Of a DNA stretch of 64,000 nucleotides, positions 40,216-43,157 are shown piece after piece. The position numbers and the translations under genes were made by a program. The notes beneath the pieces were generated by a model. It ran no database searches and had not been told where the DNA came from. It saw only the letters and a list, made by a program, of their open reading frames with translations. The stretch comes from Candidatus Methylomirabilota bacterium (lineage in GTDB: Bacteria; Methylomirabilota; Methylomirabilia; Methylomirabilales; Methylomirabilaceae): positions 1 to 64,000 of the forward strand of contig JACQQF010000046.1 in NCBI GenBank assembly GCA_016207095.1, read 5' to 3'. Within the stretch, counting starts at the first letter, position 1. Each line of letters opens with the position of its first letter.

Positions 40216-41940
40216 GTGCTCCGCGAATTGAGCATCACGAACTTTGCCTTGATCGACGAGCTGCACGTTGAGTTCGGCCCGGGGCTCAATGTCCTCACGG
40301 GCGAAACCGGCGCCGGCAAATCGATCATCATCGACGCGTTGGGGTTGGCCTTGGGGACAAGGGGTGAGGCGGAGCAGATACGCACCGGGGCCGAGGAGGG
40401 CAGGGTAGAGGCCGCCTTCGATCTGGATGACGAGGAGGCTCGCCGTCTGCTGGCGGAAGGCGGGATCGAGTGTCCGGCTGACGAGTTCCTGGTGGTCCGT
40501 CGTCACCTCCTGCGAGAGGGAAAGAGCAAGGCGTACCTGAACGGCCGTCTCACGTCTGCGGCGTCGCTTCGCGGCCTCGCCGAACTCCTGATCGAAGTCC
40601 ATGGCCAGCACCAAGGGGCCCTCCTGACTCAGCCGCATCGCCAGCGCCTCCTGCTCGACGCCTATGCCGGGCTGGCCGGTGACGTGGCAGCCTTCCGCGC
40701 TCTCTACAGCCGGCGGCAGGCCCTTCGTGTGGAACTGGACTCCTTGGTGGCGGGGGAGCGGGAGAAGGCTCAGCGTCTCGACCTGCTTCAGCATCAGCGA
40801 GGGGAGATCGCTGCCGCCCGACTCATCGAGGGCGAGGATGAGGAGCTGATTCAGGAGCGGACGATCCTCGCCCATGCCGAGAAGTTGCATGCGGCGGCGC
40901 ACCTTGGATACGAGGGGCTGTACGGGGAGGAGGGCTCGGTGGCGGGTCGCCTCGCCGCGATCCTGTCGAGACTCCGCGAGGCGCAGGCGATCGATCCCCG
41001 GTTGAAGGAGGTAGTGGATGCCTGCGAGGCCGGCATCGCCTCGGTCGAAGATGCGGCACGCCAGCTCAGGGACTACAGGGAGCGCGTGGCGTTTGACCCC
41101 GAGCGCCTGGAGCAGGTGGAGGTGCGGCTCCATGAGATCGGGAAATTGAAGCGGAAGTATGGCGCCTCGATCGCGGAGATCCTCAAGTTTGCGGCGTCGG
41201 CTGAAGAGGAGCTTCAGCACCTGACGCGCTCGGAAGAGCGTGGACAGGAGCTCGAACGGGAACTCGCGTCCGTGGAAGCCCTGCTACAACAGCAGGCGGC
41301 GGCCCTCACGGAAGGGCGCGCGGCCGCAGCCGGCCGATTGGCGGGAGCGGTGCGCCAGGAGCTGCAGGCCCTGAAGATGGACAAGGCGGCATTTGCCGTC
41401 CTTGTCAAGCCGCGCCAGGGGTCAGCGGGCGTTCGTCTGGAGCCCAGTGGGGCCGACGAGGTGGAGTTCCTGATCGCGCCGAACCCCGGCGAGGAGCTGA
41501 AACCGCTCAGCCGGATCGCCTCCGGTGGTGAGTTGTCCCGAGTGATGCTTGCCGTGAAGGCGATCCTCGCGGCCTCAGATCAAATCCCGACGCTGATCTT
41601 TGATGAGGTAGACGTCGGGATAGGCGGCGGGATGGCCGAGGTGGTCGGACAGAAGCTCTGGACTATTGCCAGGCAGCGACAGGTGCTCTCCATCACCCAT
41701 CTTCCGCAGATCGCCGCGCTGGCCGATCGACATCTTGCGATCTCCAAGCGGGCGAAGGGGTCTCGGAGCGAAACCGCCGTGCGGGCGCTGGACGGGGAGG
41801 AGCGGGTCCGTGAGATCGCCAGGATGCTCGGGGCAAAGGAGAGGTCAGGAGGGACGCCCCTTCAACATGCCCAGGAGATCCTGGACGCCGGCAAGCGGTG
41901 GAAGGCAACGAAGCGCGGGCCGTCAGGACCCAAGACGTAG
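40216..41940 (+). CDS. recN: DNA repair protein RecN
   Basis: A 574-residue SMC-like ATPase for double-strand break repair. LRELSITNFALIDELHVEFG, Walker A GLNVLTGETGAGKSIIIDAL, a long coiled coil (about residues 150-380), the ABC signature LSRIASGGELSRVMLAVKAI, Walker B TLIFDEVDVGIGG and the final THLPQIAALADRH are all present. GTG 40216. Confidence 0.96.
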   Translation: MLRELSITNFALIDELHVEFGPGLNVLTGETGAGKSIIIDALGLALGTRGEAEQIRTGAEEGRVEAAFDLDDEEARRLLAEGGIECPADEFLVVRRHLLREGKSKAYLNGRLTSAASLRGLAELLIEVHGQHQGALLTQPHRQRLLLDAYAGLAGDVAAFRALYSRRQALRVELDSLVAGEREKAQRLDLLQHQRGEIAAARLIEGEDEELIQERTILAHAEKLHAAAHLGYEGLYGEEGSVAGRLAAILSRLREAQAIDPRLKEVVDACEAGIASVEDAARQLRDYRERVAFDPERLEQVEVRLHEIGKLKRKYGASIAEILKFAASAEEELQHLTRSEERGQELERELASVEALLQQQAAALTEGRAAAAGRLAGAVRQELQALKMDKAAFAVLVKPRQGSAGVRLEPSGADEVEFLIAPNPGEELKPLSRIASGGELSRVMLAVKAILAASDQIPTLIFDEVDVGIGGGMAEVVGQKLWTIARQRQVLSITHLPQIAALADRHLAISKRAKGSRSETAVRALDGEERVREIARMLGAKERSGGTPLQHAQEILDAGKRWKATKRGPSGPKT

Positions 41941-41943
41941 GAT

Positions 41944-42029
41944 CTCGGGTCTCAGGTCTTGGGTATTGGAGCTCCGGGAAGGACCGACCTCTAGCATCCA
42001 AGACCTATAATCCACGATCTAAAATCAAA
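41944..42029 (+). repeat. Word-repeat hairpin, GGTCTCAGGTCTTGGG type, after recN
   Basis: TCTCGGGTCTCAGGTCTTGG on the left and ATCCAAGACCTATAATCCAC plus GATCTAAAATC on the right. A sister copy lies at 42727-42803, on the other side of the small gene at 42297. Confidence 0.7.
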
Positions 42030-42056
42030 GAGCCTCCGTCCGACCAGCGCTACCCC

Positions 42057-42081
42057 AAATGGGGTAATTTATTCCCCATTT
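42057..42081. promoter_or_regulatory. Palindromic AAATGGGG-N9-CCCCATTT site, possible activator site
   Basis: Perfect 8-base arms (42057-42064 and 42074-42081) 9 bases apart, about 110 bases upstream of the sigma-54-like promoter at 42191. The position fits an upstream activator site for a sigma-54 enhancer-binding protein. The left arm also pairs with CCCCAAAT before it (42051-42066). Confidence 0.45.
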
Positions 42082-42190
42082 CGTTTAGATAGGTAGAAGC
42101 GTTGGTTCTCTCGACGCCTGATGTCGAAGGAAGGAAGTTGTAACTAGTTGGAGTTATTGTCTTTATCCTTTTTTCACTCGGGCTGAATGT

Positions 42191-42206
42191 TGGCATTCCG
42201 CTTGCT
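42191..42206 (+). promoter_or_regulatory. Sigma-54-type promoter of the Lys-rich secreted protein gene
   Basis: TGGCATT, four bases (CCGC), TTGCT has correct -24/-12 spacing and invariant GG/GC. It is about 92 bases before the ATG at 42297, in an AT-richer gap than the rest of the window. Confidence 0.6.
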
Positions 42207-42296
42207 TAATTTGTAACGATGTAATAGTTTGTTCTTTCTCTTCGTAGAGGTGATCACGCTCGTAAGTCGAAACCGGAAGGGAGGTGATTCCGACTG

Positions 42297-42584
42297 ATGC
42301 TAAGGAAACTGACGGTCCTGCTGATGGCAGCCCTCTTCAGCGTCTCCGTTGCTGGCCTGAGCTTTGCTGCTTCGCATGAGAAGAAGCCAGCCACGCCTGC
42401 CACTCCGGCCACGCCTGCGAAGAAGGAGGGCGCGGTCAATCCGTGTGCGGCCGAGACGAGCAAGAAGAAGAAGGCCAAGAAGAAAGTGGCCAAGAAGAAA
42501 GCGGCCAAGGATGAGAAAGGCATGACGATGGCCCCGGAGAAGCCGGCGCCTGCGAAGCCTGCCGCCGAGCCAGCGAAAAAGTAA
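42297..42584 (+). CDS. Small secreted Lys/Ala/Pro-rich protein
   Basis: A 95-residue protein with a clear signal peptide (KLTVLLMAALFSVSVAGLSF, cleavage likely after AFAA-like SFAAS). The mature part has PATPATPATPA repeats, one Cys, a run of KKKKAKKKVAKKKAAK and a final PAPAKPAAEPAKK. No enzyme family recognised; it resembles histone-H1-like basic tails, but exported. GGAGGTGATT ribosome site, its own sigma-54-type promoter and its own terminator make it a stand-alone unit. Confidence 0.8.
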   Translation: MLRKLTVLLMAALFSVSVAGLSFAASHEKKPATPATPATPAKKEGAVNPCAAETSKKKKAKKKVAKKKAAKDEKGMTMAPEKPAPAKPAAEPAKK

Positions 42585-42610
42585 TCCCTCCGACCGCTCT
42601 TGGACGGCAT

Positions 42611-42649
42611 AAAAGGCATCCCGCTTTAGGCGGGATGCCTTTTATTTTC
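42611..42649 (+). terminator. Strong intrinsic terminator after the Lys-rich protein gene
   Basis: AAAAGGCATCCCGC pairs with GCGGGATGCCTTTT around a short loop, followed by TTATTTTCT. It lies 27 bases after the stop codon. Confidence 0.85.
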
Positions 42650-42678: not shown

Positions 42679-42726
42679 TACGCTATCCCGCCAGAGTGAG
42701 GTGGGGCTGGGATCGCCTAGTTAGAT

Positions 42727-42803
42727 CATGGATGTTGGATGGTGGGTCTTGGAAGCGCCGCATGGACACCTCAAGATCCAAGACCTTGCATCTACGATCT
42801 AAT
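42727..42803 (+). repeat. Word-repeat hairpin, TTGGATGGTGGGTCTTGG type
   Basis: ATGTTGGATGGTGGGTCTTG on the left, AAGATCCAAGACCTTGCATC and TACGATCTAA on the right. It lies in the leader between promoter and riboswitch and is a sister of 41944-42029. Confidence 0.7.
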
Positions 42804-42805
42804 CA

Positions 42806-43066
42806 GGGCGGAAAGCAGGGAAAACGGTGATGTCCCGCACCTGAGATGGTTGGGACGAGGCCGTTGCTGCCCCGCAACTGTAAGCGGCGTTGAAATCTGC
42901 GAAAGGCCACTGGTGTAAGATCAGGGTATTAGGGTTTAGGGTATAGGGTAAACGCGAGGCGGATTGATCCTCCCTAGACCCTATACGCTCTACCCTCCAC
43001 CCTGTACTTCACTGGGAAGGCGCAGAGAGTAAGACAAGCCGCGAGCCAGGAGACCTGCCCAGCCCC
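42806..43066 (+). promoter_or_regulatory. Cobalamin riboswitch (first) with word-repeat hairpin in its variable arm
   Basis: The B12-box core is clear: GCCCCGCAACTGTAAGCGG (42870-42888), GGCCACTG (42905-42912), CACTGGGAAGGCGCAG (from 43010) and GCGAGCCAGGAGACCTGCCC (43041-43060). Between GGCCACTG and CACTGGGAAGG, normally a short variable hairpin, about 95 bases are inserted with AGGGTATTAGGGTTTAGGGT and a mirrored CTAGACCCTATACGCTCTAC arm. It should switch off the BtuF-like/CobQ operon when B12 is plentiful through the terminator at 43158. Confidence 0.9.
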
Positions 43067-43157
43067 GAGGTGCTGAGGACCTTCCGAGGGGAAGGGCGGC
43101 CTTCTCGCGCATTCGATCTATCGGGGCGCGGGTTCGTCATCCGGTTTAGGGACGGTT

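Follow-up and report, generated by a model that had tools for sequence, protein, structure and literature searches.

The acid-shock chaperone Asr of Escherichia coli is rich in Lys, Ala and Pro, and its gene is controlled by the RstA route. In the available part of the published account, Asr is an inducible, intrinsically disordered chaperone that serves outer-membrane integrity (PMC10746267). A second point of reference is provided by Dickeya, where, according to the accessible sections of the source, the Braun lipoprotein Lpp and OutB both terminate in KK and are joined to peptidoglycan by L,D-transpeptidases (PMC12274547). The same source states that a C-terminal Lys is carried by more than 20% of the periplasmic proteins and lipoproteins of E. 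coli. With regard to regulation, the available text of Francke et al. 2011 (PMC3162934) describes sigma-54 control of the bacterial exterior, with promoters of this type on envelope genes and peptidoglycan as a theme. The locus analysed here lies in a 64,000-nucleotide stretch of DNA (the window; contig C20 of genome G000, 2.9 Mb in 103 contigs) from a Candidatus Methylomirabilota bacterium, and is a real, conserved sigma-54 unit of the known kind represented by that control of the exterior. Unlike the cases treated by Francke et al., its activator site and protein family go without mention in the part of that paper available, where Methylomirabilis has 0 occurrences. The protein family is named by none of the libraries searched, and a literature search of partial coverage found, among the best-ranked matches, no paper that deals with this gene or with targets of sigma-54 in Methylomirabilis.

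Re-scanning the window returned the dyad, promoter, ribosome site, 95-residue reading frame and terminator of a preliminary description of this DNA at the coordinates given there. The unit (42052–42645) begins with a predicted upstream activator region (42052–42086, no strand assigned), a 35-bp imperfect dyad consisting of two tandem CCC-N5-GGG sites at 42053–42063 and 42075–42085, the second having a degenerate outer half in the window. The inner part of this dyad is the palindrome AAATGGGG-N9-CCCCATTT (42057–42081). A second conserved block at 42140–42174, likewise without strand, reads GTAACT..TGAGAT.TATTG in many relatives and includes invariant or near-invariant positions 94–127 of alignment A3. 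About 110 bases after the inner palindrome starts the sigma-54 -24/-12 promoter TTGGCAT-N5-TTGCT (TTGGCATTCCGCTTGCT, read as TTGGCAT-TCCGC-TTGCT; 42190–42206, + strand), in which GG and GC are separated by 10 bp and from which transcription would be expected to start near 42217. On the same strand, a ribosome binding site, GGGAGGTGATT (42279–42289), stands upstream of the ATG at 42297 that opens the reading frame of a predicted exported, Lys/Ala/Pro-rich protein of 95 aa (42297–42584, ending with the stop), and an intrinsic terminator follows at 42609–42645 (stem of 17 pairs by scan, then a T-rich stretch). To judge from the ribosome site and the terminator, expression of the unit may be high.

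The upstream neighbour in the window is a recN-like gene (40216–41940, + strand), and a cobalamin riboswitch (42789–43076, + strand) belongs to a separate downstream locus outside the unit. Within the riboswitch, a variable stem carries an extra stretch of about 90 nt with TAGGGT-type inverted repeats (42931–42996); cobalamin riboswitch matches are also long in several relatives, with two in tandem at each of L005 and L009. The riboswitch excepted, Rfam matches (sX6, mir-750, HepC_CRE, BSnc120 and ncS011) fell below the gathering score and were rejected. On either side of the unit (41928–42036 and 42721–42802) lie dispersed repeats of the ATCCAAGACC...ATCTAA type, in both orientations, and similar stretches are present upstream of the unit in genome G011.

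Taken alone, the inner palindrome is unremarkable, to judge from simulated sequences and from the real window. When 2000 first-order Markov sequences were modelled on the same 255 bp, 104 of them contained a perfect 8-bp inverted repeat with a 3–20 nt spacer (4 of the 2000 with a spacer of exactly 9), and the 64-kb window holds 57 such 8-bp seeds, equivalent to 0.23 per 255 bp. The promoter pattern TTGGCAY-N5-YTGCW is rare, being found in 0 of 20000 sequences simulated in the same way. Across G000, this strict motif occurs 11 times, compared to 4 for its reversed control, and CCCCAAWTGGGG with at most one mismatch occurs 27 times, compared to 18. Elsewhere in this genome, a -24/-12 element precedes a PII-like gene, behind which comes a frame resembling glutamine synthetase (L038 on contig C27; names assigned by eye). 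This locus is a useful internal positive control. Three strong -24/-12 elements on contig C99 (L041, L042 and L043) stand before short ORFs, two of them secreted-looking and starting MTRT; L041 and L043 share upstream sequence that contains a TCCACAC...GTG.AT-like dyad, and the contig also carries an activator-domain match.

Judged from sequence, it is conservation that decides the reality of the switch, with the dyad-to-promoter region aligning in 13 copies. A search with model R1, which was built from the same 13 copies that it recovers, located this region at 13 places, one per genome and two in G009, which together cover 12 of the 15 genomes of the genus (own included). Scoring was confined to 150 of the first-look candidates in 12 of these 15 genomes, and additional weak copies could have escaped detection. 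The preliminary description had made its reading depend on the gene and promoter recurring in related genomes, which they do. TTGG.A and TGC are invariant in all 13 aligned promoters, and the sigma-54 DNA-binding domain occurs in 14 of the 15 genus genomes (once in G000), in line with the sigma-54-type control proposed earlier. Activator domains were detected in all 15 genomes, with at least 20 matches in G000. Of the features that define a sigma-54 promoter, the 10-bp GG/GC spacing, genes for sigma-54 and activators in the genome, and a putative upstream activator site are present.

The majority consensus of the relatives, ACCCCAATTGGGA-N9-TCCCAAWNCGGGT, suggests that the palindrome, although present where it was first described, is better read as the inner part of the 35-bp dyad, whose two CCC-N5-GGG sites are 22 bp, or two helix turns, apart. 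In the dyad register 74.0% of cells are paired, compared to 22–56% when it is slid, and covariation is weak: of 500 shuffles, 10 reached the observed covariation score, 88 the paired percentage, 298 the count of pairs altered at both positions and 476 that of further pair types. The dyad spacer is one base shorter in L003. From the compared start to GG, the distance is 142 in eight of the 13 copies, 144 in one and 145 in four. Alternatively, the dyad could terminate the gene upstream of it or bind a repressor, given that a scan returned a weak terminator-like hairpin at 42051–42066 and that in relatives the dyad lies close behind the stop codon of a class A penicillin-binding protein (PBP) gene. 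This we regard as highly improbable, since the near-fixed distance to the -24 element is kept behind PBP, recN and another gene as well as in the second G009 copy, the relatives have no T run after the first stem, and sigma-54 promoters require an activator.

A search of the genus with a long pattern of the putative activator region, which tolerates up to two mismatches and misses the divergent sites of G000, G002 and G011, matched the unit in 9 of 15 genomes and one further place, G009:C39, and tied no activator to the site. This extra switch copy precedes a small secreted basic protein starting MKRLFMV. A protein that starts likewise is encoded directly behind the switch of G011, ahead of the Lys-rich gene, present there in two copies, so that more than one small secreted protein seems to be served by the switch. 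Behind a -24/-12-like element, G002 encodes another protein whose signal peptide is of the same kind but whose mature part differs.

Homologues of the gene were found in Candidatus Methylomirabilota MAGs, in Methylomirabilis sp. and in a 'Methylomirabilis oxygeniifera' MAG. The family alignment matches 13 of 15 genus genomes (own included) at E ≤ 0.01, among them G012 with a weak gene match (8.4e-4) and no promoter match. No gene match was obtained for G003 and G014 in this 15-genome search; absence from these two genomes is not claimed because their contigs end in or just after the usual neighbour gene, the G014 contig 13 bases after the PBP match and the G003 match running to the contig end. 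The unit had been called stand-alone, which holds for the single copy in G000 and does not extend to the other 11 unit-bearing genomes, where two or three copies stand in tandem. L022 and L024 are longer paralogues that carry a tandem duplication within the mature part.

A wider search over 95 genomes of the phylum gave matches at E ≤ 1e-5 in 16 of them, comprising 12 of the genus and four of one other family of the order, and a fifth genome of that family, G025, matches the window protein at 4.3e-5. Three of the five proteins of this other family (L122, L124 and L125) have a -24/-12 element with a CCCAAA-type site, CCCAAACGGGG, CCCAAACGCGG or CCCAAATGGAG, 113–115 bp upstream, and by eye a weaker copy of the site 21 bp further upstream, amounting to a tandem arrangement. 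Of the other two, one showed neither element nor CCCAAA-type site (L123; no promoter by the scan in G022), and the stretch examined in G025 contained neither a canonical promoter nor recN. Outside the phylum, two Deltaproteobacterial MAGs (L102 and L104) encode a similar basic exported protein, that of L102 being a sub-threshold Asr match. As switch carriers they were not counted, their element reading TTGGCAC-N5-TTGGA with GG for GC in the -12 part (by eye, not by scan), and neither was L105 (Nitrospiraceae), where the scan gave no element.

The window protein has a signal peptide at about residues 1–25 (by eye), a single Cys in an NPC motif, a K-rich centre, an A/P-rich tail and a terminal KK. 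Its AlphaFold model contains one helix (residues 2–26) and no structure thereafter, with a mean pLDDT of 60.5, the pattern that a signal peptide ahead of a disordered chain should give, and the mature protein is accordingly predicted to be disordered. Among 26 aligned genus members, the eight invariant residues all fall in the first 24, the mature part (counted from residue 27) is net positive in every member with a charge of +7 to +14, and 15 have one Cys, in most cases within NPC. The predicted signal peptide supports the export already proposed for this protein. Chance composition, that is, a Lys-rich frame on repetitive DNA for which a 121-aa antisense frame (42254–42619) would be an equally good candidate, has a practically negligible probability: the antisense frame is longer than the sense frame and there is repeated DNA inside the gene, but start, ribosome site and signal peptide are conserved, and changes at third codon positions are in excess (146, 130 and 251 at positions 1, 2 and 3 over 817 codons, in 10 author-chosen pairs).

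The view that the protein belongs to no known family held, as no curated family model reached its own cut-off; Pfam matches such as LYRIC were below cut-off and are probably compositional. Against the NCBIfam Asr model NF033636, E ≤ 0.1 is reached by five of the 26 members (best 1.7e-6, 28.8 bits), and the window protein gives no match at all. Membership was rejected, all scores being below the 50-bit cut-off, and biased composition alone can give scores of this kind. The exported, basic and disordered character of Asr is nevertheless predicted for the family, which like E. coli Asr would be small, Lys/Ala/Pro-rich and inducible. Unlike E. coli Asr, the unit is under sigma-54, the proteins end in KK, the genes occur in tandem copies and the scores stay below the family cut-off. 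The preliminary description had suggested an exported polycation that might bind LPS, DNA or polyphosphate. Taken as a secreted or surface polycation that binds LPS, the S-layer, extracellular DNA or polyphosphate, this proposal agrees with the strong positive charge and the signal peptide (seen by eye, and as a helix in the AlphaFold model). We consider it unlikely, as nothing singles out any of these partners.

The PBP neighbour is the one genomic pointer to function, and it points toward peptidoglycan synthesis. In 8 of the 12 unit-bearing genomes the class A PBP gene lies directly upstream of the unit, and in the G008 copy both the transglycosylase and the transpeptidase domain were found. 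Close to its start (chosen by script), each of the eight adjacent PBP genes carries the -24/-12 element TGGCAYGATA.TTGC, and TGG[CT]A[CT]-N6-TGC is found upstream of all 11 PBP orthologues of at least 67% identity, which are these eight, the G000 copy and two at contig ends (G014 and G003). The G000 orthologue, 67% identical, is on another contig and has the upstream element TTGGCATGCCCATTGCT. An activator common to PBP and the unit is not supported, because no CCC-N5-GGG pair is visible by eye in the PBP promoters. Nor is the PBP link universal, since the unit stands behind recN in G000, G002 and G011 and behind another gene in G009. In the other family recN is upstream in four of five cases (L122–L125), and the order recN–unit is probably ancestral given its presence in these four genomes and in G002 and G011.

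The C-terminal residue is K in 25 of the 26 full ORFs and the last two are KK in 23, compared to one K in 156 residues at positions -3 to -8. These ends resemble those of Lpp and Dickeya OutB, which together with the PBP neighbour makes it attractive to think of a covalent or tight peptidoglycan tether, in which the terminal Lys would be linked to the stem, the A/P-rich tail would span the mesh and the PBP would supply the wall. A YkuD L,D-transpeptidase, as such a linkage would use, is present in seven of the 12 unit-bearing genomes. It was not found with Pfam YkuD in G000, G001, G002, G010 and G011 (in G000 also not with a genus YkuD protein), of which three are 80–83% complete, G000 95% and G001 99%. 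Unlike Lpp and OutB, moreover, the family has no lipobox and no membrane anchor was seen after the signal peptide. Terminal Lys is in any case frequent among E. coli periplasmic proteins and lipoproteins, as noted above, and two of the five other-family proteins end in S. In the available part of a study of M. lanthanidiphila, SDS-boiled patches gave one matching protein, an S-layer protein (PMC8671808), although Lys-rich proteins yield poor tryptic peptides. Overall we judge a tether to be quite unlikely, and very unlikely the bolder version in which an NC10 sigma-54 activator deploys disordered, Lys-terminated polycations fixed to new peptidoglycan beside a co-regulated class A PBP, where they would serve on induction as a wall tether or charge cushion that is not a lipoprotein and has no known counterpart.

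With moderate confidence, we favour a reading in which a conserved sigma-54 switch controls an intrinsically disordered polycation of the periplasm that would protect or remodel the envelope in an Asr-like manner. The part of this mechanism that can be read from the DNA comprises tandem putative activator sites at a near-fixed distance to a canonical -24/-12 promoter, a gene for a secreted protein and a terminator. A bacterial enhancer-binding protein would bind both sites on the same helix face, loop to RNA polymerase–sigma-54 and open the promoter on an envelope-related signal. The protein would then be exported by Sec and lose its signal peptide, and the flexible polycation could protect or remodel the envelope from the periplasm, working like Asr and acting alongside a class A PBP that is itself apparently sigma-54 driven in the genus. 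Such regulation suggests on-demand envelope protection or remodelling in a methane-oxidising NC10 bacterium. The unit offers a sigma-54 envelope circuit that is open to experiment and is retained by two families within one order, which consists of uncultured methane oxidisers and related bacteria. With it comes a family of periplasmic, disordered and probably inducible proteins, and the conservation of their C-terminal Lys is directly checkable on purified sacculi.
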